A stretch of DNA of 64,000 bases. Source: Bacteroidetes Order II. bacterium. GTDB lineage: Bacteria > Bacteroidota > Rhodothermia > Rhodothermales > UBA2364. Position numbers and translations under genes: made by a program. The stretch is from contig JAEUSQ010000014.1 of NCBI GenBank assembly GCA_016788705.1, forward strand, positions 1-64,000. The letters are read 5' to 3'. Within the stretch, counting starts at the first letter, position 1, and each line of letters starts with the position of its first letter. Below, piece after piece: positions 1-26,038 of this stretch. The notes beneath the pieces are model-generated. The model saw nothing but the letters and a program-made list of their open reading frames with translations. It searched no databases and was not told the DNA's origin.

Positions 1-56
1 ACTATACAAGTTATGAATCCCAAGAACCCTCTCTTGACTAATTTGAGTACTTTCAT
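1..56 (-). CDS. N-terminal fragment of a putative immunity protein for the lipase-like Rhs tip
   Basis: An ATG at 56-54 overlaps the TGA (55-53) of the lipase-like toxin tip as ATGA and stays open to the window edge. The 18 visible residues begin MKVLKLVK and continue with a hydrophobic run ending near ITCI, which looks like a signal peptide or first membrane segment. The position and overlap match the other toxin/immunity pairs in this cluster, so a periplasmic or membrane immunity role is inferred from context only. Most of the gene lies outside the window. Confidence 0.5.
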   Translation of the reverse strand, partial: MKVLKLVKRGFLGFITCI

Positions 57-826
57 TTTGCTAAACCTCGATGAACTAAATACTGATGGACAAAATTCAT
101 GACATTCTGATTGGTGTGCATGGCACCATGTGCGTCCCATATACCTGGGTTTTGTGTTCTATATCCTACTTGGCGACCTTTTGCATAAATTGGAACTTGT
201 AGGGATTTTAAACCTGTTAAGTCAGTTACATCTCGATTATCAAAACCTCCGTGTGCCCTGCCAGCAGGTCCAATTTCAAAACCGCCTGTATAAACAGGAT
301 TTCCTAGACGATCTCCACCTACAAATCTTGGTGTACTTCCGCCATTAGTTTGTACTCCATCATATTTATTGTACAAATTGAGCGTCGTTTGAATATGTCG
401 TCTTGCAGTATCTGTCAGTTTGTACGCTCGTGAAGGGGTACCCATCATAACGACCGTTTTTGTGTTAATACCTGCATTTGCAAGTGTATTAAGCGCCATA
501 ATTGCAACATTGCCACCATGACTGTGTGCAACGATATTAACCGTTTTGGAAGGATCTTTGTGTAGTGTTTGCATGATTGAAAATGCCAATTGAGCTGCTG
601 CCTCCCTCCGTTCTTTATCATTATTTCCACCTGACCAATTGGAAAAATGCCCTTCTCCTGTATCTCCTAAAGCATTTTGCCATGATCGCAGATGACCCTC
701 TGCATATCTTTTTCCTAACGATTGAAAATGATTATCATCTTGACTATAATCCGCAAATATTGTTCCATGTACAAACCAAGTGTCTTTCCCATCCGGATCC
801 ACCATCCCCAGCGGGTTGTTCAGCAC
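53..826 (-). CDS. Orphan Rhs C-terminal toxin tip with alpha/beta-hydrolase (lipase-like) fold
   Basis: The 257 residues start at the conserved Rhs boundary (LNNPLGMVDPDGK), followed by a serine-hydrolase-like domain. Visible features are a WFVHGT strand-turn (about residues 17-22) that could form the oxyanion hole, a nucleophile elbow VAHSHGG with Ser102, and histidines in DAHGAMH (233, 237) near the C terminus as candidate catalytic base. A lipase, phospholipase or esterase toxin is inferred. The real upstream Rhs frame continues as SPYNYV but is cut by a TAG where the other modules have Trp, so this tip is an orphan with no intact Rhs cage. The internal ATG/GTG codons used here as start may not be real starts. 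The downstream partner overlaps by ATGA. Confidence 0.7.
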   Translation of the reverse strand: MLNNPLGMVDPDGKDTWFVHGTIFADYSQDDNHFQSLGKRYAEGHLRSWQNALGDTGEGHFSNWSGGNNDKERREAAAQLAFSIMQTLHKDPSKTVNIVAHSHGGNVAIMALNTLANAGINTKTVVMMGTPSRAYKLTDTARRHIQTTLNLYNKYDGVQTNGGSTPRFVGGDRLGNPVYTGGFEIGPAGRAHGGFDNRDVTDLTGLKSLQVPIYAKGRQVGYRTQNPGIWDAHGAMHTNQNVMNFVHQYLVHRGLAK

Positions 827-1196
827 ATAATTATACGGACTCTATGCGGGGTATTTCTCCGCCAGCGGGTCCACCGACAGCCACCGCCCACTCCCCGAAG
901 CGTAGTACCCGTGCGCCACACGAGGCGAAGCCGACCAATGGAGCGAAGCGGAATAAAGTAATCAAGCCCCGTCTCTGCATCGCGCTCCTTGTTCCGCTCG
1001 CTAAGGCGGAGCGGTGAACCGCTCCTTTGTAGGATTGCCAATCGCATAACTACGACCGGGCATAATACCACCCCATGCCTCATAATCGTGCCCCTCCATA
1101 ACCATACCATCTTCTCGAATAACCGAACGGGTGCTTCCAAAGTGGTCTTTTTCGGCACACCCAAACGCCGTGTTCCAATACTGGTTGGCTTTTGGT
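827..1196 (-). pseudogene. Decayed Rhs core remnant upstream of the lipase-like tip
   Basis: Minus-strand translation recovers Rhs core text in pieces: FGSTRSVIREDG, then YEAWGGIMPGRSYAIGNPTK and ERFT, later KERDAETGLDYF, then RWLSVDPLAEKYPA followed by TAG and SPYNYV. The pieces are separated by a 16-nt palindromic insertion near 1000-1015, a 37-nt hairpin-rich insertion at 918-954 and one extra G near 909. These add up to 54 nt, but in-frame stops remain. The remnant accounts for the gene-free stretch 827-1196. From 1197 to 1340 nothing further is recognisable. Confidence 0.75.
918..954. repeat. Hairpin-rich 37-bp insertion in the Rhs core, copy 1
   Basis: The segment begins ACACGAGGCGAAGCCGACC and contains two mini-hairpins with GAA loops (GGC-GAA-GCC and GC-GAA-GC). 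It interrupts the Rhs core exactly between the YF and GARYY codons. Very similar sequence sits at the same core position in two other modules (4592-4628 and 6096-6132). Confidence 0.6.
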
Positions 1197-1340
1197 AATA
1201 ATTTGGCTATATTTTCTCATTGGGAATCAGTTAGCCCTGCTGAATTGCTTTAGTGTATGGAAAATACAAAATAAAACCATATCCTACACGTACTGGATAG
1301 CTTTATTAAATCCGTTAATCTTAAAAAATATCGCTGCTTT

Positions 1341-1934
1341 ATGAATGAAAGAATAGTAAGAGCTGTATATGATAACAATACCATTACAGTTTATCAAGCG
1401 TTTAATAAATATATCGCTCAATCCGCAGTAGAGCATCAAACTTTTGTATCTCCTCCTTTTAAAAAGGAAAGAATGACTTGGATTAAACCTTCTTTCCTGT
1501 GGATGATGTATCGTTCTGGTTGGGCTATCAAAGAAAATCAGGAGTGCATTTTAGCAATAAAAATAAAGCGTTTAGGACTTGAATGGGCTCTACAAAACTC
1601 CTGCCTATCTCATTTTGATAGTTCAGTTCATACATCATATGAAACATGGAAAAAAATACTCAAAAATTCGCCTGTTCGTATTCAATGGGATCCTGAAAAA
1701 GATATTTTCTTACATCCCTTAAATTATCGTTCTATTCAAATAGGTTTATCAGATATTGCAGTAGAAAGATATGTTACTGATTGGATTGTGCAGGTTGATG
1801 ATATTACAGAGAATTGCAAACACATCAACCAACTTATTAATGAGGGTAAAATAAATCAGGCAAAGGATTTATTGCCACAAGAACAAATTTACCCTTTGCC
1901 TGAAAATATCGCTTTAATAGTTAATGCTTTTTAA
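1341..1934 (+). CDS. DUF4291 family protein
   Basis: This 197-residue protein carries the conserved DUF4291 signature: an N-terminal RAVYDNNTITVYQAF block, HQTFVSPPFKKERMTWIKPS (about residues 33-52) followed by FLWMMYRSGW, and the later ALQNSCLSHFDSSVH block. Length agrees with the family. The biochemical function of the family is not established to my knowledge. It is the only plus-strand gene in the Rhs graveyard, is AT-rich like its surroundings, and its last 14 nt overlap the end of the convergent immunity candidate (1921-2409). No signal peptide or membrane segment is seen. Confidence 0.85.
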   Translation: MNERIVRAVYDNNTITVYQAFNKYIAQSAVEHQTFVSPPFKKERMTWIKPSFLWMMYRSGWAIKENQECILAIKIKRLGLEWALQNSCLSHFDSSVHTSYETWKKILKNSPVRIQWDPEKDIFLHPLNYRSIQIGLSDIAVERYVTDWIVQVDDITENCKHINQLINEGKINQAKDLLPQEQIYPLPENIALIVNAF

Positions 1935-2409
1935 GAACTTCCTCAAGTTGAAAAGTTGCATTTTCTTTTATAATTGGATCATCAACTTTTTCTAAAAGCT
2001 TTAATTTTTGTATTGCTTCAGGTGTATTAACAGCACTCAAAGCCCATATAGATTTTTTGGCTATAGCTCTCATATCATCGTAATCAGGAACATCAAGAGC
2101 AACTTCATATAATTTGTCTACGCTTTTAGGGTCTTTAATCAATTCGAGAACACTTATAATATCCTCTTCAGAAGTGTGCCATTTCTCATCTAAAAGTTGC
2201 AGTAAAATATCTGTGTAATCAGCATCTGCGCCGTCATAAAAAAGAACAGATAGAGTGGTTTCTAAACCCTCTTGGTCTTCATTTTTGACATTTTCTTTTA
2301 ATAAAGAAAGGGTTTCTTTTTTAAAACGCAATAATCGCTCTTGAGGAAATTCATCAAAATAAATTTCACCATTTAAAAGCTTTTTATAAAATTTCCAAAA
2401 TTCAAACAT
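1921..2409 (-). CDS. Putative immunity protein, helical-repeat (HEAT-like)
   Basis: The 162-residue cytoplasmic protein is acidic and apparently all-helical, with repeated helix pairs such as TDILLQLLDEKW, DIISVLELIKDPKSVDKLYE and AIQKLKLLEKVDDPIIKENA that look like HEAT/armadillo-type units. Its ATG (2409-2407) overlaps the TAA of the preceding Rhs tip as TAATG, which suggests translational coupling. Position and size fit an immunity gene for the 2409-3172 tip. Lack of a signal peptide would put toxin neutralisation in the cytoplasm. Function is inferred from context. Confidence 0.6.
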   Translation of the reverse strand: MFEFWKFYKKLLNGEIYFDEFPQERLLRFKKETLSLLKENVKNEDQEGLETTLSVLFYDGADADYTDILLQLLDEKWHTSEEDIISVLELIKDPKSVDKLYEVALDVPDYDDMRAIAKKSIWALSAVNTPEAIQKLKLLEKVDDPIIKENATFQLEEVLKKH

Positions 2410-3172
2410 TACTTAATTACTTTAAAGTTATTTATCCATGGATTAAACATATGAGTATTTTGTTGTATTCCTAAATTCCAAGCTTTTCTCTCATATTTCC
2501 ACATTAATAATCCTCTATTTGCCCATCCTTTACTTGCCGCTGGTGTTCTATGCATTACCCCAACCTGTTTAAAGTAATTCATTGCACCTGGCTTCATATT
2601 AAACTGAACCAATACATCATACCATCTTTTTGTAGGTACGGTCTTGAATATGCAGATTTTGTAGAAACAAACAACTTTTTTCCTTTCATATATGTTAAGC
2701 CTTGATTGGCTTCTAATGCAGCATATTCAGCATTAGACATTGCTCTATAAAACGCTACTTCCTTCGTGGCAAGGAGTGCAGAACCTCCTCCTTGTGCTAG
2801 CCTTTGGGCAACCCCCAAAGCACCGCCAGACAATAAAAAAGGAAGGGTATCATCTTCTACTAAACCTTCAGGGTTTGCTATTTCTCCTGCTTCTACTAAC
2901 TCTCGTACATAAGGGTCTGTTATATTTTCGCTAACCCAGAGCTTCCATGCAAGTAAATAATCCGTACTACTAGGAGGGGAAGACCAACCCCAAGATGGTT
3001 GACGTTGTTCATGAAGGTCAAAGGCGATTGAGTTGATTTCACCCCGCCGTTCATGACTAAAACCGACCGCTTCAACGGCCACTTCTTGGCAATAACCCTG
3101 TGTCTTTACATCCCAGTTCTTACATGGTTCAAGCCCAAATAAGTCCACCATCCCCAGCGGGTTGTTCAGCAC
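2409..3172 (-). pseudogene. Frameshifted orphan Rhs toxin tip, type unrecognised
   Basis: The tip begins at the Rhs boundary (LNNPLGMVDLFGL) and runs in one frame to about 2600, ending in a non-conserved tail. From about 2640 downward the plausible reading moves to the next frame: FKTVPTKRWYDVLVQFNMKP and onward to FNPWINNFKVIK, finishing at 2409. One frameshift near 2635-2650 joins the two. The upstream core (3173-3228) reads LSVDPLAEKYPA, then TAG, then SPYNYV, so there is also a nonsense codon where other modules have Trp. The final domain resembles C-terminal domains on other Rhs/polymorphic toxins that I cannot name with certainty. The candidate immunity gene overlaps its stop. Confidence 0.65.
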
Positions 3173-3316
3173 ATAATTATACGGACTCTATGCGGGGTAT
3201 TTCTCCGCCAGCGGATCCACCGAAAGGATGTTTTGGCACTTTAAGCAACGAAACTCACCTATAGTAAGCCATTCATTGAATTAATTACTTACTTTGCTAT
3301 TATTTTAAAAGTCTAA

Positions 3317-3772
3317 CTATATAATCCTGAATGGCCAGATCAACTCAACCCTTTCACTGGGTGGTATCAATACCTTTACTTTTTTAAATTCGGATATCAA
3401 CCACTTTTCTAGAATTTCATCTATAGGAGGCTCAGAAAATCCATGCTTATAATAAAAAATTGTTTCACCTTTACCATCCCAAAGTTGAATAAAATTTATC
3501 CGCTTTATCTCATATGTTTCATCGGGAAAAAGAACCACTAAAGCATCAGAACCTCCATTCATAAACCCTTTGAAACGGCTTCTAATTTCGTTTGGCATTA
3601 CAAAATGGGGTGGTTTATCCAAAACACGCCCAGTTGGCTTTGAAACAACGACAGGGCTCCCTTCTTTAGGAGAAAGGACGGCCTCTTTAGGAGAAGGTAT
3701 CACCTCTTTAGAGGAGCAACAAGCCCCCAAGAAAAAGGAAAAAACAATAAAAGGTAGTAAATACTTTTTCAT
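3317..3772 (-). CDS. Putative lipoprotein immunity protein
   Basis: This 151-residue protein has a lipoprotein signal (MKKYLLPFIVFSFFLGACC; lipobox GAC with Cys18), a low-complexity SPKE-repeat linker at about residues 27-43, and a mixed alpha/beta remainder. Its ATG (3772-3770) overlaps the TAA of the frameshifted zincin tip as TAATG. By analogy with the other modules it is the likely immunity protein, placed in the periplasm or outer membrane. It does not obviously resemble the 8262-8741 immunity family even though the toxin tips are related. Confidence 0.6.
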   Translation of the reverse strand: MKKYLLPFIVFSFFLGACCSSKEVIPSPKEAVLSPKEGSPVVVSKPTGRVLDKPPHFVMPNEIRSRFKGFMNGGSDALVVLFPDETYEIKRINFIQLWDGKGETIFYYKHGFSEPPIDEILEKWLISEFKKVKVLIPPSERVELIWPFRII

Positions 3773-4549
3773 TACATTCCAAAATTAGCCCTCTGTGGAT
3801 GATAAAACCTAATTATTAATGGTTGAGCAGAAACTCTGATAAAATAATCTTTATATATAGATCTTTCATTGTTCTTACTCCCTTTTTTAAAATTCAGGAT
3901 TGCTGTTTTATATTTTTGATGGTCAAATTCAATTTGGGGGTTCTGTAATTTGTCTGTTAATCCTACCATTGAGCTTTGGTAAAGTTCACCCTCCTTATTA
4001 TTTCTACCAAAAGGCATTCCTGATAGCCCTGGCAAAGTAGTGTTGATAAACAACTCCTGCATCACAAATACCTTAAAAATATCAGCCTCTACCTCCATAC
4101 TGATAAAACGTCCCGTTGCATTTTTCTGATCGTGTTCATAAAACATGATATAGTTCGTGCGCAATCGCTTTTGTATCAGTTTTAGTATCATCTGAAAGAT
4201 CTCCTTTAATCGTTCTTGATTTATGAGAATAGGACATAGAAGCATTAATCTCATCTGGCTTTTGGTGATTAAAGGTGTAGGTTTCTTTACTCCCAACAAG
4301 CGTTGATATAACATGGTTTCCTGATTCAGATTTAGAGATTAGGTTTAATTCACTAATAGCTCTATAAACAGATTTATTGTATTTATATTGTTCTGCATCC
4401 ATACCTTCTTGATAATAAAGGGCACACTCCCGCTTTTCATTCATATATAAACACACCTGCTTCCCATCTGGGTCTATGGCATTTAGTGGAGAATTTCCTA
4501 CGTAATTATACGGCGACCAGCTGGGGTATTTCTCCGCCAGCGGGTCCAC
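3772..4549 (-). pseudogene. Frameshifted orphan Rhs zincin (HExxH metallopeptidase) tip
   Basis: In frame 1 the sequence reads VDPLAEKYPSWSPYNYVGNS, then a zincin-like domain to AIAHELYHV, then stops at TGA. Deleting one T from the TTTT run near 4145-4148 restores HELYHVYEHDQKNATGRF and continues to FYHPQRANFGM, ending at 3772. The restored protein has HExxH (HELYH) and a downstream MEVEAD glutamate as candidate third zinc ligand, matching the layout of the intact tips at 8738-9592 and 7429-8151. The break could be real, phase-variable, or a homopolymer sequencing error. Upstream (4550-4640) the core continues as GARYYDSGIGRWLAVDPL but is interrupted by the hairpin insert. Confidence 0.75.
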
Positions 4550-4591
4550 CGCCAGCCAGCGGCCAATCCCCGAATCATAGTACCGCGCGCC

Positions 4592-4628
4592 ACACGAGGC
4601 AGAGCCGACTGATGCAGCGAAGTGGAAA
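4592..4628. repeat. Hairpin-rich 37-bp insertion in the Rhs core, copy 2
   Basis: This is a diverged copy of the element at 918-954 (starts ACACGAGGCAGAGCCGACTG). It lies directly before the GARYY codons of the zincin-tip core stub. Its length is 1 modulo 3, so it shifts the Rhs frame. Confidence 0.55.
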
Positions 4629-4630
4629 AA

Positions 4631-4664
4631 ATACCAGCCCTAAACAACCAATTAGGACTGGCAT
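4631..4664. repeat. 34-bp palindromic repeat, copy A
   Basis: The arms CCAGCCCTAA (4634-4643) and TTAGGACTGG (4652-4661) pair with one mismatch around an 8-nt loop. A near-identical copy lies at 6329-6362. There is no T-run, so this looks like an intergenic REP-type element rather than a classical terminator. The rest of 4665-4789 shows nothing recognisable. Confidence 0.6.
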
Positions 4665-4789
4665 AATCTCAGTTTATTATCTCAATGGCTCAGTAGCATG
4701 ACTTCGCCGTATCGCTACACCGCACCGCTGCCGTTGTCGCTACGAAGCAAAACGGTACTTCGGAGAAGCGCCGTTTTTGAAATAAGTTT

Positions 4790-5161
4790 TTATACAACAC
4801 GATGAGCAACATTATGGTATAATACTAATCCAATTAGAAGAGTAATAGATGTGATGCTACTATATAAAATTGCTGAGTAAATATAATATTTTACAAGAAT
4901 ACTACTTTGGATCATGTTTTTGTTATAGATGCTAAATATAAATAAACTTAATTGCATAAAAAGTAAAAATAAATACAGTTGATACTTGATCATGGGAATA
5001 GTATCCATTAAAAGAACACTATCTTCATAAGATTCACTCAAGTTAGTAATATCTTGACCAACGATCATAGAAACGATTTTATTTGAATAAGTATAAAAAC
5101 TATAAAGTATTACAATTGCTGAAATATATAATACGAGATGAGAAATAAGTTTTTTTTGCAT
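4790..5161 (-). CDS. Small polytopic membrane protein, candidate immunity protein
   Basis: The 123 residues have three clear hydrophobic helices: about residues 7-25, 62-81 (YQLYLFLLFMQLSLFIFSIY) and 92-115. It lies 34 nt downstream of the Rhs tip at 5196-6053 on the same strand. A membrane-embedded partner suggests the cognate toxin acts at the inner membrane. That role is inference from gene order alone. The sequence is very AT-rich and no family is recognised. Confidence 0.5.
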   Translation of the reverse strand: MQKKLISHLVLYISAIVILYSFYTYSNKIVSMIVGQDITNLSESYEDSVLLMDTIPMIKYQLYLFLLFMQLSLFIFSIYNKNMIQSSILVKYYIYSAILYSSITSITLLIGLVLYHNVAHRVV

Positions 5162-5195
5162 TGTAATAGCTTAAATAGGGTGAATCAGAAAATTA

Positions 5196-6053
5196 TCAGT
5201 GTCTTTTTATCATGTAATTACGCAGGATCATTCCAGAAGCGTATTCTCCTCCTGGATATGGCATTTGATGAGGAGCTACTTTATGCCCCATTGCTTGCAT
5301 CCCATATGCCCACCTTTCTTTGACATTCATCAAATTTCCTGAGGCAGGGAAGGGTGCCATACCAGGTACTAAAATTGGTGCAATAATAGACATACCAGCC
5401 AGACCCTGTTTTGAAGCCGCTGAAACCAGTCCAAACGCTTTAGTATTTTCATACAACGGTTGAATTAAACTTTGTTCCTGTGCCAAAGTAAAACCATCCC
5501 ATCTTTTTGCATCACGTCCTTTTAAGACAGTACCTTTAATGAGATTTTTGAGTTTGGGGAACACATTCTCAAATATAACTCTATTCCCTGTTTTTGCAAA
5601 TTGAGATGCGTCAGCAGAGCTATACCCAAGTAAAGCTCCTGCTTCATATCCTTCATACTCATCAGATAAAAAACTGATAGAACCTGCAACTTTAGATGCT
5701 GCCTTTGCCCAACGCGTTTCAAAACCTAAACGAGCCGTATAACTATCAAACCAACCATAAAAAGCTGCTCTTTGTTCAATAGTTTGATATTCCCAATGGC
5801 GCTGGTTTTCTAAATTATAGAGATTTGCATTTTGCCATCTAACAGTATTATTCATCCTATCGTCATAGGTCCAATCTTCAGGGTTGTTAGATTGCAAGCA
5901 AGTTCTTATCTTGAATGCTCCCAACGATCCTTGCATATATCCATTATAACAGGGCAATTCTTTTTTACCGTCAGGATCAATTCTGTCGGTAACGCTGTTA
6001 CTTACATAATTGTATGGAGACATATCAACAAAAGATTCCGCCAGCGGATCCAC
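5196..6053 (-). CDS. Orphan Rhs toxin tip, type unrecognised
   Basis: The 285 residues start within the Rhs core stub (VDPLAESFVDMSPYNYVSNS, then DRIDPDGKK). The start codon used here is a GTG for that Val and may not be genuine. The variable domain of about 255 residues has no motif I can name. It contains a moderately hydrophobic, Gly/Pro-rich stretch (GLAGMSIIAPILVPGMAPFP, about residues 217-236) that could be membrane-active, which would agree with the polytopic membrane partner downstream. The usual DPLAEKYPxW is altered to DPLAESFVDM here. The core upstream (6054-6135) is interrupted by the hairpin insert and has a TGA. Confidence 0.55.
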   Translation of the reverse strand: MDPLAESFVDMSPYNYVSNSVTDRIDPDGKKELPCYNGYMQGSLGAFKIRTCLQSNNPEDWTYDDRMNNTVRWQNANLYNLENQRHWEYQTIEQRAAFYGWFDSYTARLGFETRWAKAASKVAGSISFLSDEYEGYEAGALLGYSSADASQFAKTGNRVIFENVFPKLKNLIKGTVLKGRDAKRWDGFTLAQEQSLIQPLYENTKAFGLVSAASKQGLAGMSIIAPILVPGMAPFPASGNLMNVKERWAYGMQAMGHKVAPHQMPYPGGEYASGMILRNYMIKRH

Positions 6054-6095
6054 CGAGAGCCAGCGGCCAATCCACGAAGCGTAGTACCGTGCGCC

Positions 6096-6132
6096 ACACG
6101 AGGCGTAGCCGACTCATGGAGCGAAGCGGAAT
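6096..6132. repeat. Hairpin-rich 37-bp insertion in the Rhs core, copy 3
   Basis: The sequence (starts ACACGAGGCGTAGCCGACTC) differs from the 918-954 copy at only a few positions. It occupies the same site, immediately before the GARYY codons of the Rhs core. Confidence 0.6.
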
Positions 6133-6328
6133 AAGTCGCAGATTCACCGGAAGGTAAAGTAATCTAATCCCGTTTACTACGCTACGCTTCGTGAATCTGC
6201 GCTAACGCTTGATTTCGGCATCGCGTTCCTTACCGTCAGGTCGAGGCTCTAGCCTTCGATGGGCGCAGTTACACCCTCTTTTAGCACAGATCGCATTGTA
6301 CCAAGATGTAATTTCTCTATGCGTGCTT

Positions 6329-6362
6329 ATGCCAGTCTTAAACAACCAATTAGGGCTGGCAT
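6329..6362. repeat. 34-bp palindromic repeat, copy B
   Basis: This is a near-identical copy of 4631-4664 with ends ATGCCAG and CTGGCAT and the shared middle TAAACAACCAATTAGG. Its presence in two separate inter-module spacers shows that the spacers are related by duplication or by element spread. Confidence 0.6.
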
Positions 6363-6445
6363 ATACCCATAATCAGAATGATGCCAGCCCTATCGCGTTA
6401 TACCCCTCTCTAAAACATCTTCACATGTAAAACATCTTCATAGCC

Positions 6446-6931
6446 TTACTCTTTTTTCCATGACTTATAACGAGAACAGGTCCTTGCTGAAAACCCAAAA
6501 AGAATAAGGGGCATTTTCTCTTGCCGACTCATCTCAAGTTGGTCTGCTTCCGTCTTTGAAAACAGGTTGGGATAACGGGCATAATAAGCATAAAAAGCCT
6601 GCTCTAACCACAATGGATTCATATACGTATTCTGACGGGCTAAAGACTTATTCTTGGCGTTATCTTCCACAGAAATATCTTCCCTTTTCTTGATATCATA
6701 ATACGAATAAACATAGGTTCGTAAGTATATAATACGGTTGTTTTCCTTCTTGTATAAAAATCTAATTCCTGCCTCACCATGATTTTTTATTTTTAAGGAA
6801 TCGGGTACAACAATGCAGGGATCACCATAAAAATCAAGTTCTTCTTGTTGCTGCCCGTAGCAAAATGTGCTCGTTAAAAAAAGGATTTTAAATCCGCTAA
6901 GGCAGCATATCCTATAAAATAGTTGTTTCAT
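6446..6931 (-). CDS. Putative exported immunity protein, tandem copy 2
   Basis: Start chosen at the ATG at 6931 (MKQLFYRICC), matching the paralogue upstream. A GTG two codons earlier would give MKMKQ. The protein has about 161 residues with a Sec signal peptide ending near FCYGQQQ, then the family motif PCIVVPDSL, a YSYYDIKKRED block, a WLEQAFYAYYARYPNLFSKTE helix and a C-terminal CSRYKSW. It is nearly identical to the 6942-7427 protein and related to 8262-8741, all downstream of zincin-type Rhs tips. The likely role is periplasmic immunity; the duplication may provide redundancy or altered specificity. Confidence 0.65.
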   Translation of the reverse strand: MKQLFYRICCLSGFKILFLTSTFCYGQQQEELDFYGDPCIVVPDSLKIKNHGEAGIRFLYKKENNRIIYLRTYVYSYYDIKKREDISVEDNAKNKSLARQNTYMNPLWLEQAFYAYYARYPNLFSKTEADQLEMSRQEKMPLILFGFSARTCSRYKSWKKE

Positions 6932-6941
6932 CTTCACAGCC

Positions 6942-7427
6942 TTACTCTTTTTTCCATGACTTATAACGAGAACAGGTACTGGCTACAAACCCAAAAAGAA
7001 TAAGGGGCATTTTCTCTTGCCGACGCATCTCAAGTTGGTCTGCTTCCGTCTTTGAAAACAGGTCGGGATAACGGGCATAATAAGCATAAAAAGCCTGCTC
7101 TAACCACAATGGGTTCATATACGTATTCTGACGGGCTAAAGACTTATTCTTGGCGTTATCTTCCACAGAAATATCTTCCCTTTTCTTGATATCATAATAC
7201 CTATAAACACTAGTCCTTAAGTATATAATACGGTTGTTTTCCTTCTTGTATAAGAAAGAAATTCTTGCCTCACCATGATTTTTTATTTTTAGGGAATCAG
7301 GCACAACAATGCAGGGATCACCATAAAAATCAAGTTCTTCTTGTTGCTGCCCGTAGCAAAATGTGCTCGTTAGAAAAAGGATTTTAAATCCGCTAAGGCA
7401 GCATATCCTATAAAATAGTTGTTTCAT
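6942..7427 (-). CDS. Putative exported immunity protein, tandem copy 1
   Basis: The 161 residues start at an ATG one nucleotide after the TAA of the zincin tip (7429-8151), so the two are likely co-translated. The signal peptide covers about residues 1-28 (hydrophobic core FKILFLTSTF). The mature part has PCIVVPDSLKIKNHG, two conserved blocks around YRYYDIKKRED and NPLWLEQAFYAYYARYPD, and CSRYKSWKKE at the end. Two mature Cys residues could form a disulfide, as expected in the periplasm. It is homologous to 6446-6931 and 8262-8741. The immunity function is inferred from pairing with a related toxin family. Confidence 0.7.
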   Translation of the reverse strand: MKQLFYRICCLSGFKILFLTSTFCYGQQQEELDFYGDPCIVVPDSLKIKNHGEARISFLYKKENNRIIYLRTSVYRYYDIKKREDISVEDNAKNKSLARQNTYMNPLWLEQAFYAYYARYPDLFSKTEADQLEMRRQEKMPLILFGFVASTCSRYKSWKKE

Positions 7428-7428
7428 C

Positions 7429-8151
7429 TTATTTCCTTACGTTTTTGTAAAAGGTGGTAATAACAGGAGGGCGGGTTAGGGTATAGGTAAATTCCTTAAA
7501 GTTTGCATAAGACCCCATTTGCTTAGAACCCATCTTGAACAAACCAACCGCATCATTAAAATCTTTCACAGGAAAAGATTGTTTTTTATGAAACGCTTCT
7601 AATAGAGTATTTATTTCTCTATTGTAAGCCACTCCTTTATCTATATCATTTCCCCCTTTGTAATCCCTTATGGATGTTGTCTTATTATTTGATAACCTAT
7701 CCTGAATGAAGTAGCCATAGAGATACCCTTCAACTTCAATATCAATTCCACTTCCAAATTCACTGCCAAGTTTATCTTTTTGGTAAGCATGGAAAAGTTC
7801 ATGTCCCACCCTCATCATGTCATCAATATCCATCTCTTCACTTCCAAGCCCACCCATATAAAAGGTTCTTGTTGTTCCGCCAAAAGCATAAGCCCCTTGG
7901 GGAGAACGTTGATCAGAGAATATATACCGCTCTGGGCTCTTAATCAATGTGGCAATGACGGTTGCACCCACATCAATGGTCGCAAGTTTGTTGAGTCCTA
8001 GAACAAAATTATACAGGTCTTTATTGTCCTTAAACTGCTCGGCATCCATCCGTGATTTGTATTGCTGGGTACAAGATTTGCTTTTGTTGTCATAGACCAA
8101 GCATATTTCTTTCCCATCCGGATCCACCATGCCCATTGGGTTATTGAGCAC
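7429..8151 (-). CDS. Orphan Rhs zincin (HExxH metallopeptidase) toxin tip
   Basis: The 240 residues start at LNNPMGMVDPDGK. The domain contains GHELFHAYQ with HExxH at residues 117-121 and a following DIEVEGY glutamate about 18 residues downstream as candidate third zinc ligand, a gluzincin-like layout. The first 150 or so residues are almost identical to those of the 8738-9592 tip; after EVEGYL the two diverge. This pattern of a shared catalytic half and a variable tail suggests recombination. The core stub upstream is badly degraded (8152-8262), so the tip has no intact Rhs carrier. A peptidase toxin role is inferred. Confidence 0.7.
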   Translation of the reverse strand: MLNNPMGMVDPDGKEICLVYDNKSKSCTQQYKSRMDAEQFKDNKDLYNFVLGLNKLATIDVGATVIATLIKSPERYIFSDQRSPQGAYAFGGTTRTFYMGGLGSEEMDIDDMMRVGHELFHAYQKDKLGSEFGSGIDIEVEGYLYGYFIQDRLSNNKTTSIRDYKGGNDIDKGVAYNREINTLLEAFHKKQSFPVKDFNDAVGLFKMGSKQMGSYANFKEFTYTLTRPPVITTFYKNVRK

Positions 8152-8261
8152 ATAGTAGCGAATTTTAAATTCGCCATAAGGGCTGGCATGATGCTGATTA
8201 GAAATCAGAAAGGTATTTATCCGCTAGCCGATCCACCACCACCGCCCGATGCCTTGAAAGA
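8152..8261 (-). pseudogene. Degenerate Rhs core stub with palindromic insertion
   Basis: The minus strand reads GIGRWW, then in another frame VDRLADKYLSDF and a TAA, then SPYGEFKIRYYVLNNP. The expected SPYNYVLNNP is split by an almost perfect palindrome (GCGAATTTAAAATTCGC, 8157-8173). At least one frameshift separates the RW block from the VDxLA block. Confidence 0.6.
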
Positions 8262-8741
8262 CTATTCTTTACGAGAACAGGTATATACGCCAAGTGAAAA
8301 ATAATACAAGGTTGCTCTGTCTGTTTTATACATATAAGTTAAGAACTCTTCTCGCTTCTTAATAATTTCTGGATAGGATGAGACATATCTATAAAAGGAA
8401 GCCTCTAACCAAGCAGGATTCAAGTAAGAATTGGGGTGTTTTTTGTATTCAACTTTTAATAAATCAACCCTGTCAAATACATCAACCTCTTTACGCTTAT
8501 TGAGATCATAATAAGAATACACCCTTGCTTTTACCAGAAGATTTTCTCCCTTTTCTGAATTTTTATAAAGGTAGCTAATCAGAGTTCGGTTATGATAACT
8601 GATTTGCAAGCTATCTGGAACCTGCAAGCATGGGCGCTCATCTATGGTAGGTAGTATCCAGTTTTGCGAGTAGCAGTATTGGAAAACCATCCCAAAGCCA
8701 ATGAAATATTTTCCATACTTATTGAAAATTAATGTCATCAT
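8262..8741 (-). CDS. Putative exported immunity protein for the zincin Rhs tip
   Basis: The 159 residues overlap the upstream toxin tip by ATGA. A hydrophobic N-terminal segment (about residues 11-25) is a likely signal peptide or anchor. The mature part is homologous to the tandem pair at 6446-7427: RPCLQVPDSLQI, the YSYYDLNKRKEVD block, YLNPAWLEASFYRYVSSYPE and a C-terminal CSRKE. Same order, same family and the coupled start make this the best supported immunity candidate in the cluster. The downstream core stub starts almost at its stop. Confidence 0.7.
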   Translation of the reverse strand: MMTLIFNKYGKYFIGFGMVFQYCYSQNWILPTIDERPCLQVPDSLQISYHNRTLISYLYKNSEKGENLLVKARVYSYYDLNKRKEVDVFDRVDLLKVEYKKHPNSYLNPAWLEASFYRYVSSYPEIIKKREEFLTYMYKTDRATLYYFSLGVYTCSRKE

Positions 8742-9592
8742 TGTTTTACCTTGGTATGATAAAGTGAAGCAATAACAGGCGTTTGTTTTTTCGTATAAGT
8801 GTAGATTGGGAAATCTTTATATGCTCCCATCGTATCTGAACCCTCCTTAAAATTATCAGCTGCTTTGCGAAAATCACGGATAGGAAATTCTTTTCTATCC
8901 AGATAATTTATAGCCATAGAAATCATACCCTTAGAGTATTCTTCTCCTTTTGGTACATCATTTCCGCCAATATAATCATTAGGGTCAGGGCGATAGTTAT
9001 CCAAACCATAACGAATAATGTATTGAAACAGATAGCCTTCAACTTCAATATCAATTCCACTTCCAAATTCACTGCCAAGTTTATCTTTTTGGTAAGCATG
9101 GAAAAGTTCATGTCCCACCCTCACCATGTCATCAATATCCATCTCTTCACTTCCAAACCCACCCATATAAAAGGTTCTTGTTGTTCCGCCAAAAGCATAT
9201 GCCCCTTGGGGAGAACGTTGATCAGAGAATATATACCGCTCTTGGCTCTTAATCAATGTGGCAATGACGGTCGCACCCACATCAATGGTCGAAAGTTTGT
9301 TGAGTCCTAGAACAAAATTATACAGGTCTTTATTGTCCTTAAACTGCTCGGCATCCATCCCCGCTTTGTATTGTTGGGTACAAGATTTGCTTTTGTTGTC
9401 ATAGACCAAGCATATTTCTTTCCCATCCGGATCCACCATGCCCAGCGAGTTGTTCAGCACATAATTATATGGACTCCATGCGGGGTATATTTGTCCGTAC
9501 AGCACAGGACACTCGTATGGGTCTGAAAAAAATTCTTCGGGTGTCCGGATTTTGGCACATGATTCGTCTATGATCATGTAACATGGGAGCAT
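8738..9592 (-). CDS. Orphan Rhs zincin (HExxH metallopeptidase) toxin tip with non-Rhs N terminus
   Basis: The 284 residues have an N-terminal 34 or so (starting MLPCYMIIDESCAKI) that are not Rhs core. Core then starts abruptly at IYPAWSPYNYVLNNSLGMVD, with the Trp codon intact. The catalytic domain contains VGHELFHAYQ (HExxH at 161-165) and DIEVEGY (Glu183/185). The tail ends in TPVIASLYHTKVKQ. This is the rightmost module, and no rhs gene lies upstream: a plus-strand DGPF gene begins at 9621. The junction near 9490 therefore marks the edge of the rearranged island. Whether it is expressed alone is unknown. Confidence 0.65.
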   Translation of the reverse strand: MLPCYMIIDESCAKIRTPEEFFSDPYECPVLYGQIYPAWSPYNYVLNNSLGMVDPDGKEICLVYDNKSKSCTQQYKAGMDAEQFKDNKDLYNFVLGLNKLSTIDVGATVIATLIKSQERYIFSDQRSPQGAYAFGGTTRTFYMGGFGSEEMDIDDMVRVGHELFHAYQKDKLGSEFGSGIDIEVEGYLFQYIIRYGLDNYRPDPNDYIGGNDVPKGEEYSKGMISMAINYLDRKEFPIRDFRKAADNFKEGSDTMGAYKDFPIYTYTKKQTPVIASLYHTKVKQ

Positions 9593-23387: not shown

Positions 23388-24299
23388 ATGAAAGCCCTCT
23401 TAACCCTCTTCTTGGCCCTCGCCCTTAACACAATGCTCTCTGCTGGAGTACCTGATTCCACCATTACAGCATCGCATTACCGGATATATGGAAAAAATGG
23501 TGAAGCCTTGCGCATAGAAGATATTGTACGGCAAATGAGGGCAGCCGATGTGGTTTTTCTGGGAGAAGAACACAACGATCCCGTGGCCCATCACCTCCAA
23601 TTCGAGTTACTCAAAGCCCTTTTCGAGGCAGAGAAAACACGCCCGATCGTGCTGGCGATGGAGCAATTTGAGCGAGACACCCAAGAAGTACTGGACTTAT
23701 ACCTTTCAGGTACCATCAGGGAGCGAGACTTTAAATTAGATAGTCGCCCATGGACCAATTATGAGACTGATTATAAACCGATGATTGAGTTTGCAAAAAC
23801 AAACCGTATTCCAGTCATTGCAGGCAATGCGCCCCGACGGCTTGTAAGCCTGACAGGCCGAGAAGGTATTGCCGTACTCAATTCTTTACCTACGATCGCC
23901 AAGCAATGGCTTCCACCCTTGCCCTTGCATCCAGCATCTGCCACATATGGCCAGAAGTTTAATGCAGAGATGGAACGGCAAATGGGTGTTGCACACAACA
24001 ATCCAAAAATGTTAGAGGCCCAAAACCTCCGAGATGCAACCATGGGATGGTCTGTGGCCCAAGCATTCAAAAAACATAAAAAAGCCCTTGTCGTCCATAT
24101 AAATGGGGTGTTTCATAGCGAAAGCGCCTTGGGTACTCCTGAACAGGTATTGCACTACCACAAAAAAGCCCGAATTTTTACTGTGACCATGCACTCTGGT
24201 ATGGGTTTTCCCGAATACAAACCGAGTGAACACCAACATTTGGGTGATGTCTTGATCTTGACAGATCCCTCTCTACCCCGTACCGACAAGCGCAATTGA
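23388..24299 (+). CDS. ChaN-family (DUF399) heme-binding-type exported protein
   Basis: The 303 residues have a signal peptide (MKALLTLFLALALNTMLSA). The ChaN/DUF399 domain is recognised by VVFLGEEHNDPVAHHLQFEL (about 55-74), LAMEQFERDTQ and VVHINGVFHSESALGTPEQV. ChaN-like proteins bind haem in dimers, and many are envelope lipoproteins. This one lacks an obvious lipobox. Its stop overlaps the ATG of the cytochrome c gene (TGATG), indicating co-translation and a shared haem-related role. Confidence 0.82.
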   Translation: MKALLTLFLALALNTMLSAGVPDSTITASHYRIYGKNGEALRIEDIVRQMRAADVVFLGEEHNDPVAHHLQFELLKALFEAEKTRPIVLAMEQFERDTQEVLDLYLSGTIRERDFKLDSRPWTNYETDYKPMIEFAKTNRIPVIAGNAPRRLVSLTGREGIAVLNSLPTIAKQWLPPLPLHPASATYGQKFNAEMERQMGVAHNNPKMLEAQNLRDATMGWSVAQAFKKHKKALVVHINGVFHSESALGTPEQVLHYHKKARIFTVTMHSGMGFPEYKPSEHQHLGDVLILTDPSLPRTDKRN

Positions 24300-24778
24300 T
24301 GATGCGTAAAACATTATTTCTCTTGGTATTGGTCGCATGGATGGGTTGCAAACAGACACCCTCTCCTATCCCACTTCCCCCGCCAGGGATGGCTTTTTAC
24401 GAAAAGCAGTGCGCTTCGTGTCACCAATCGGATGGGGAGGGTGTGTTACGCACCTTTCCTCCACTCAAAAACAATGTAACGGTCGAAGGACCACATGGAC
24501 GATTGATTCGTTTGGCACTTCATGGCTTGGAAGGCGAATTGGTCTCTGAAAACGAAGTATATCGTGGGGCTTGTCCACCGTGGGGACATCTAAGCGACGA
24601 GGATATTGCAGACATTCTTACCTTTATCAGAAGTCGCTGGGGAAACAATGCGCCCCCCGTCCCTGCCGACGACATAAAAATGATTCGGTTATTCTATCGC
24701 GACCGCACCACACCTTGGACGCCAGAAGAATTAAAAAAGCCCGAAAACACGTCGGTTCCGGGTGTTGCTGGTTGGTAA
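24299..24778 (+). CDS. Cytochrome c-type lipoprotein with Cys in the axial Met position
   Basis: Start set at the ATG overlapping the chaN-like stop. The protein has 159 residues. Signal and lipobox (AWMGC, Cys17) indicate a lipoprotein. A single CASCH haem site lies at 38-42 (haem ligand His42). The distal loop that normally supplies the axial methionine in this class (MPPWGHLSDEDIADILTFIR-like) reads RGACPPWGHLSDEDI, so Cys92 replaces Met. The haem may therefore be His/Cys-ligated or use another residue, which would change its redox potential and ligand binding. It is paired with ChaN-like 23388-24299. Confidence 0.85.
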   Translation: MMRKTLFLLVLVAWMGCKQTPSPIPLPPPGMAFYEKQCASCHQSDGEGVLRTFPPLKNNVTVEGPHGRLIRLALHGLEGELVSENEVYRGACPPWGHLSDEDIADILTFIRSRWGNNAPPVPADDIKMIRLFYRDRTTPWTPEELKKPENTSVPGVAGW

Positions 24779-26038
24779 CTATTCCCAACGAATCGCCTCC
24801 ACAGGCTCTGTCTGTGCAGCCCGCCATGCTGGATATACGGCGGCCAATGTACATAAGACCAATACCCCAAGGGCAATTACCAACACATCGCCATACTGTA
24901 CCGCAACGGGATAGGCATCAATAATGAAGGAATCCCCGCCCATCAGTGGGACCCATTTAAAGCGATCTTGTATATAGCAAAGGAGCAAACCAATGGTTGT
25001 TCCAACAGCTATGCCTACGCTACCAATCAGCAAGCCTTCTAAGAGGAAAATGTGACGAATGTGAGACCGTGAAACCCCCATCGCCTGAAGAATGCCCAAA
25101 TCCCGCCGTTTCTCAATCACGACCATGGTGAGCGATCCTACGATATTAAAGGCAGCCACCAGAATAATGAGGCCAAGGATTAAAGAGGCGCCCCACTTTT
25201 CGAAGAGCATTGTCTCGTAGAGGGTTTTCTGGATATCAAACCAAGTACTAACGCGAAATTTTTGGGCGTTCAGCTGTGCCAAAAGATGGGCTTTTACTTG
25301 CGTAGCAGCGTTCAAGTCGTTTAAACGTAGTTCGACCCCTGTTACCCGACCATTCATTCTGAACAGACGCTGGGCTTCTGGCAAATCAATAAACACATGA
25401 CTTTCGTCGTAGGTGGGGTCTATTTGGAATAGGCCCCTGACCTGAAATCGTGGGAAGTCTGGAAAACCAAATGTAGCTAAACTACGGGCAAGACCCGCCG
25501 CAGACCGAAGTTCCACCCGATTGGGACCATAATCATTATTAAGTGAAAAAATACCAATCCGATTGGCCAATGCCTCGCCCAATATTACACCCGGCTCGCC
25601 CTCGCCACGCGCCAATTGCAGGGTACCAGTTGTCATCTTTCCGGAAACGGTATTTTCGCCTGTTCCTAAGTGACCTACAATGCCTCTGACGATCACAACC
25701 TTGTTACCGTGTTTCCCCTCGCCCCAGATAAACTGTGCTTTTCCTTCTACATACGGTGCAACCGATTGTACGTGGGGGGTGTTACGAATGGCTTGAATCA
25801 GAGAATCCGGATTTAAAAACCCTCTTGAACTGGCCGATTCTATCCGAATGTGGGGATCAAACGAGACCATAAGGTCGCGCACAAGATTAAAGAAACCATT
25901 CAATACCGAAAGCACAACAATCAGCACTGCCGTCCCCAATGTAATCCCTGCAATCGATATGCCGGAAATAATAGATACCAGTGAGAATTGTTTTTTGCTC
26001 GCAAAATATCGGCGTGCGATTAGTAAGCGATAGTCCAT
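24779..26038 (-). CDS. LolC/E-family lipoprotein-releasing ABC transporter permease
   Basis: The 419-residue inner membrane protein has the MacB-PCD/FtsX layout: an N-terminal membrane helix preceded by RRYFASKKQFSLVSIISGIS, a periplasmic domain (about 50-265), and three C-terminal helices. It contains ILVAAFNIVGSLTMVVIEKRRDLGILQAMGVS, conserved in LolC/LolE, and a terminal EPVEAIRWE. It probably moves lipoproteins out of the inner membrane together with a LolD ATPase encoded elsewhere. The gene ends 1 nt after the convergent cytochrome c stop. Confidence 0.85.
   Translation of the reverse strand: MDYRLLIARRYFASKKQFSLVSIISGISIAGITLGTAVLIVVLSVLNGFFNLVRDLMVSFDPHIRIESASSRGFLNPDSLIQAIRNTPHVQSVAPYVEGKAQFIWGEGKHGNKVVIVRGIVGHLGTGENTVSGKMTTGTLQLARGEGEPGVILGEALANRIGIFSLNNDYGPNRVELRSAAGLARSLATFGFPDFPRFQVRGLFQIDPTYDESHVFIDLPEAQRLFRMNGRVTGVELRLNDLNAATQVKAHLLAQLNAQKFRVSTWFDIQKTLYETMLFEKWGASLILGLIILVAAFNIVGSLTMVVIEKRRDLGILQAMGVSRSHIRHIFLLEGLLIGSVGIAVGTTIGLLLCYIQDRFKWVPLMGGDSFIIDAYPVAVQYGDVLVIALGVLVLCTLAAVYPAWRAAQTEPVEAIRWE

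Follow-up and report, generated by a model that had tools for sequence, protein, structure and literature searches.

A monoheme cytochrome c with cysteine at the axial methionine position, kept in one bacterial genus and encoded beside a ChaN-like gene

The closest described counterpart of the cytochrome considered here is TfcP (Mxan_0363) of Myxococcus xanthus, in which Cys91 occupies the methionine position, the spectra are reported to be those of a His/Cys heme, with an extra peak near 360 nm, bands near 630 and 730 nm and an EPR signal of thiolate type (g near 2.5, 2.26 and 1.88), and the potential is given as -304 to -320 mV (PMC8833165). In the account available, the proposed role of TfcP is to assist calcium binding by PilY1.1 and not to carry electrons (PMC8833165). 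His/Cys ligation is also reported for heme 1 of the diheme enzyme TsdA, with a potential of -185 mV and the same ligand pair in both redox states (PMC6879331), and TsdA is further described as combining its Cys-ligated heme with two conserved arginine side chains (PMC9562282). In type-2 heme-thiolate proteins, which contain b-type heme, a thiolate switch on reduction is said to open a site for gas (PMC9562282). A search of the literature, reaching few subscription journals, returned no report of the cytochrome described below, for which TfcP is the nearest precedent.

This cytochrome is encoded in the window, by which we mean the whole stretch of 64,000 nucleotides of bacterial DNA that was analysed (Table 1). 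A first-pass annotation had described an intact CASCH motif and a cysteine, Cys92, at the axial methionine position, and both were found as stated, in the sequence of the open reading frame (ORF) and in alignments. Its Pfam profile, its heme motif and the predicted fold make the protein a class I cytochrome c, and it lacks the distal methionine typical of that class. A hydrophobic stretch followed by Gly16-Cys17 is seen by eye at its N-terminus, most cleanly in one of the two related genomes (G002), and on this visual reading of the signal the protein is probably a lipoprotein. Its other methionines are residues 1, 2, 15, 31 and 128; the distal loop contains none, so that the other outcome considered in the first-pass annotation, a methionine elsewhere in the loop providing the ligand, finds no candidate in this protein.

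Table 1. Positions in the window of the cytochrome gene, its upstream neighbour and the residues discussed in the text
Feature	Position	Strand	Basis
ChaN-like (PF04187) protein, 303 aa, signal-like N-terminus (by eye)	23388..24299	+	Pfam E 5.7e-59; model
Stop/start junction TGATG (ChaN-like stop 24297-24299, cytochrome first ATG 24299-24301)	24297..24301	+	Sequence
Monoheme cytochrome c, 159 aa, Cys92 replacing axial Met	24299..24778	+	PF00034 E 6.1e-11; PF13442 E 2e-9
Putative lipid-anchor Cys17, end of lipobox-like segment	24347..24349	+	Gly16-Cys17 identical in 3 genus proteins; lipobox by eye
CASCH heme c attachment motif (Cys38, Cys41, His42)	24410..24424	+	CXXCH in 137/137 domains
Distal-ligand loop Tyr88-Leu98	24560..24592	+	Sequence; 48-row alignment
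Arg89, 3 residues before ligand position	24563..24565	+	Asn/Thr/Ser in 41/45 others, Arg in 0/45
Cys92 codon TGT, axial Met position	24572..24574	+	Sequence; alignments
His97 in loop, genus-typical, alternative ligand candidate	24587..24589	+	48-row alignment

Three genomes of the genus were examined, namely that of the window, G001 (94% identity) and G002 (75% identity), and comparison with homologues outside the genus sets these three apart. In an alignment of 48 rows, every one of the 45 that do not belong to the genus has methionine opposite Cys92, and in a profile alignment of 137 distinct domains from the phylum the ligand column holds methionine 134 times and cysteine three times, each cysteine belonging to a genus member. 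This alignment of the axial position, proposed as a check in the first-pass annotation, bears out the replacement of methionine described there. The 137 domains are what remains of 162 aligned rows once identical or contained ones are removed; the rows include the matches from an order search (114 genomes, 79 matching at E 1e-20) and a phylum search (394 genomes, 77 at E 1e-22), both of which cover matches up to the threshold given, weaker rows of a further search that recurred in neither having been left out. Also set aside were L004 (a weak match), L005, L036 and L037 (copies of genus loci), L006 (from another phylum, with methionine), L056-L081 (ChaN and pattern loci) and L109-L118 (cytochromes of the window's own genome, read separately). 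An alanine that tblastn had placed at the ligand column in L002, a large fusion protein encoded in the window's own genome, was discarded as a misalignment, as the profile alignment gives methionine. A sequencing error behind Cys92 was likewise rejected: all three genomes have TGT here and not the ATG that the first-pass annotation had named as the observation that would overturn its claim, and because TGT and ATG agree at none of their three positions no single error yields it.

Further residues are typical of the genus, that is, found in at most two of the 45 other rows, among them Arg51 (Gly in 38 of the others, Arg in two), Thr61 (Trp in 39), His66 (Lys in 27), Arg89 (Asn in 26) and His97 (Phe in 29). 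The statement that relatives typically read MPPWGH was nearly right, MPPWG and MPAWG being common among them, although Phe is the usual occupant of the His97 position. A DNA-level scan for the pattern Tyr-x-Gly-x-Cys-Pro-[Pro/Ala]-Trp, which covers one phylum and misses cysteine in other loop contexts, matched in 15 of 394 genomes; three of these are the genus members, and in the 12 others the matching ORF lacks a CXXCH. Viral contigs gave 60 pattern stretches and no relatives, and the 95 plasmid records that matched all did so at <60% identity. Four of the pattern loci (L071, L072, L074 and L075) belong to one unrelated family with the same Cys-Pro-Pro-Trp segment, which we take to be PEBP-like and which would produce false positives in motif scans for Cys-type cytochromes.

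In a phylogenetic tree one branch separates the three Cys rows from all the others (100/100), and their stem is long, at about 1.0 changes per site, although the tree rests on few columns, has many unresolved forks and an unsettled bootstrap, and contains other stems that reach 0.9-1.0. Because the other 134 domains have methionine, parsimony leads us to infer that the change ran from Met to Cys. The ancestor would have been an ordinary His/Met electron carrier, and its axial methionine would have been replaced on the stem of the genus and the cysteine then held by strong purifying selection. The substitution rates are those of a gene under such selection within the genus: the close pair formed by the window and G001 has dN 0.031, dS 0.68 and dN/dS ~0.05, and Cys92 is kept against G002, where dN is 0.19 and dS, near saturation, 1.71. 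The long stem is what might be expected of a relaxed or decaying cytochrome that lost its ligand by drift, but the low dN/dS, the intact CXXCH and the presence of the same cysteine codon in all three genomes leave that account scarcely credible.

Among solved chains phmmer places first the copper nitrite reductase of Ralstonia pickettii (E 8.6e-17), whose cytochrome domain aligns without gaps over 102 residues with residues 29-130 of the window protein and has methionine opposite Cys92. This three-domain enzyme (3zbm, 3ziy) is the closest solved match by sequence and by fold, an AlphaFold model of the window cytochrome (mean pLDDT 88.3, heme-free) matching its cytochrome domain with Z 16.8 and rmsd 1.2 over 106 residues. 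The Ralstonia domain differs in donating electrons and in the aligned methionine, which is presumably its axial ligand. Cytochrome c552 of Thermus thermophilus (1c52, 1dt1), a His/Met carrier, has the fold in common with the window protein (1dt1: Z 16.5, rmsd 2.0, 117 residues), and a solved Met-to-Cys mutant of Nostoc cytochrome c6 (4h0j) is found among the model matches at Z 7.7.

From its place in the loop and its conservation we consider it probable that Cys92 ligates the iron axially while the protein is in its resting ferric state, the heme then being held by His42 and the Cys92 thiolate. His97 and His66, both typical of the genus, are possible alternative ligands, and the heme might also be in a His/His or mixed state. 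The protein might instead be a conventional carrier in which Cys92 is unligated and the sixth ligand is His97 or a methionine outside the loop, or in which the heme is five-coordinate; the genus-typical His97 would suit this, as would Met31 and Met128, which lie outside the distal loop and do not vary among the three proteins of the genus. Cys92, however, stands at the ligand column and is conserved, and L006, a distant relative, reads MPPWGH with its methionine present; as it carries Met plus that His, a histidine there need not mean ligation. A conventional carrier with another ligand is, in our judgement, unlikely.

With His42 and Cys92 as the ligand pair, the precedents of TfcP and TsdA heme 1 make a His/Cys heme of strongly lowered potential likely by analogy, and the first-pass annotation had drawn this natural expectation; the sensing or transport roles that it added are conjectural. 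The midpoint potential would lie several hundred mV below that of a His/Met heme, and such a lowering would take the cytochrome off the nitrite-reductase/oxidase chain. The likeness to TfcP, as that protein is described, extends to a secreted monoheme cytochrome c domain with cysteine for the distal methionine, a C-terminal extension, a similar size, retention in one lineage and a gene placed with that of its partner, a putative one in the present case. The likeness is one of features read from sequence, and there are differences: TfcP comes from another phylum and is reported with 60 residues between CXXCH and cysteine as against 54, the window protein is lipoprotein-like, and the neighbours given for TfcP are pilin and PilY1 genes, whereas the gene upstream of the window cytochrome is ChaN-like by Pfam, its other neighbours being named by reading.

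The His/Cys hemes of TsdA and SoxAX are further removed, as these proteins are described as enzymes of sulfur oxidation with another Pfam domain, TsdA having two hemes (PMC6879331, PMC9562282). A thiol enzyme of the TsdA/SoxA kind has nevertheless to be weighed, in which Cys92 would leave the heme and form an adduct with inorganic sulfur, and the heme would take up electrons, with Arg89 and Arg51 as the anion's binding site. Both arginines are possible anion binders on sequence grounds, and their being genus-typical together with Cys92 recalls the reported pairing of a Cys-ligated heme with two conserved arginines in TsdA (PMC9562282). Against this, the ORF has a single CXXCH and not the two hemes of TsdA (PMC6879331); its Pfam matches are Cytochrom_C (PF00034) and Cytochrome_CBB3 (PF13442) and no others, SoxA-TsdA_cyt-c (PF21342) being absent at E 1e-3; a scan of the own genome for the SoxA-TsdA domain gave no match, which is uninformative because its controls were silent too; and the neighbouring gene is ChaN-like and not a recognised sulfur gene. 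We hold a thiol enzyme to be very unlikely.

The preferred reading also involves the gene upstream. The first-pass annotation had reported that the two genes overlap and had coupled them, and their adjacency is borne out: a ChaN-like gene adjoins the cytochrome gene in all three genomes of the genus, so that the pairing is conserved there on the evidence of gene order. The overlap holds in part, amounting to one base in the window and in G001 (where the junction reads TAATG) if the first ATG, at 24299, is the start, while in G002 a gap of two bases separates the genes; the start in G002 corresponds to that same first ATG. At the homologue loci examined outside the genus the arrangement was not met with. 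In a tblastn search of the ChaN-like protein against loci L001-L055, in which the flanks of the other loci extend ~1-1.5 kb, only the genus loci matched; ChaN-like homologues were present in 36 of 60 genomes searched, own and genus included, and at nine non-genus loci with flanks of at most 1.5 kb there was no adjoining CXXCH ORF of at least 110 residues. A scan for promoters and terminators returned 1 and 3 sites, respectively, where 2.9 and 2.3 would be expected, and a defence-gene library gave no match. Downstream, the stop of the cytochrome gene abuts that of a convergent gene with zero bases between them (24778-24779), the latter encoding a LolC/E-like permease by reading.

The profile of the ChaN-like protein reaches Campylobacter jejuni ChaN by sequence (E 2.8e-13), and its model (pLDDT 88.1) has this protein as best match (2g5g, Z 25.8, 241 residues), the two having the same fold but 16% identity. 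The structural-genomics proteins 2qgm, 3b55 and 2rad come next (Z 15-16), and the erythromycin esterase EreC (Z 14.2-14.5) and the effector HopBA1 (Z 14.3) are also matched. Residues invariant in 11 homologues include Gly59, Glu60, His62, His68, His237, Gly240, Phe242 and His243. On the strength of the model, heme binding by the ChaN-like protein is possible, and so is an enzymatic role. Among the ChaN-like genes from other families of the order, that of L059 (929-1678) adjoins a gene for an RlpA-like lytic transglycosylase (Pfam DPBB_1, SPOR), and that of L060 (724-1479) has an RlpA-like neighbour by reading and a DEAD helicase; these neighbours hint at an envelope setting for ChaN-like proteins.

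The cytochrome would then be a dedicated partner of the ChaN-like protein. We regard such a functional partnership as evenly balanced between right and wrong, the adjacency lending it weak support because it comes from three related genomes. The heme might be a structural cofactor or one that responds to redox state or thiols, much as TfcP serves PilY1, and this analogy is unlikely to be right in detail. A more specific form, a two-part periplasmic device in which a non-carrier heme-thiolate cytochrome controls or stabilises a protein of the ChaN/erythromycin-esterase fold, with reversible Cys ligation as the switch, we consider a long shot. We hold the ligation strongly and the partnership moderately, and the mode of action is a guess. 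As a whole, the reading of a periplasmic, probably lipid-anchored cytochrome that exchanged Met for Cys, acquired a low-potential His/Cys heme and works with a ChaN-like partner has, in our estimate, an even chance of being correct.

The heme might also act as a switch for redox state or for NO/CO, the thiolate leaving on reduction, a gas site opening and the signal passing through the ChaN-like protein, and type-2 heme-thiolate proteins, though with b-type heme, are described as behaving in this way (PMC9562282). NO is plausibly made in this organism, because its genome has a NirK-cytochrome fusion and, by reading, a NorC-like gene. The two-gene unit is, however, without sensor domain or regulator, and TsdA heme 1 is reported to keep its His/Cys pair in both redox states (PMC6879331); a gas or redox switch is accordingly improbable. 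On contig 13 of the own genome (L003/L109) the genes for a fusion of copper nitrite reductase with a cytochrome, for a NorC-like cytochrome and for an SCO1-like protein, all named by reading, lie near one another, and the cluster suggests partial denitrification.

PF00034 has 10 matches in the own genome, one being the window domain, and in eight of the other nine methionine is seen by eye at the expected place; by reading, two of the eight lie in the NorC-like protein, one each in the NirK fusion, a cbb3-like and a CoxB-like protein, and three in large fusion proteins, the ninth match being a diheme peroxidase-like protein. A search of the genus at E 1e-8 gave only long proteins and no further small protein of this family with methionine. 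Neighbours were read at 16 Met-type loci, and six of these, chosen for look-alike neighbours, were submitted to Pfam: in L009, L014, L018, L019 and L026 the adjoining genes encode a GSDH sugar dehydrogenase, an SGL gluconolactonase or both, and in L016 an E1-E2 ATPase. As the six were picked by hand, no neighbour frequency follows; because GSDH and SGL genes adjoin them, some Met-type relatives at least seem to accept electrons from dehydrogenases of the periplasm, and this setting is absent from the Cys type.

Taken by analogy with TfcP, the window cytochrome would be an independent second case of a cysteine-ligated cytochrome, here repurposed as the partner of a ChaN-like protein. If so, the different phylum and different partner raise the question of whether Cys ligation is a general route from cytochrome to accessory protein, the swap from Met to Cys being one that should give an ordinary electron carrier a different job. 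With 134 Met-type relatives at hand, the protein is a small test object in which ligand, potential and function can be compared.

Elsewhere in the window (53-9592), several minus-strand ORFs have in common an N-terminal segment that reads like Rhs-type repeats and differ in their downstream parts; two of these ORFs, at 7429-8151 and 8738-9592, resemble each other so closely along much of the sequence that they look nearly duplicated.
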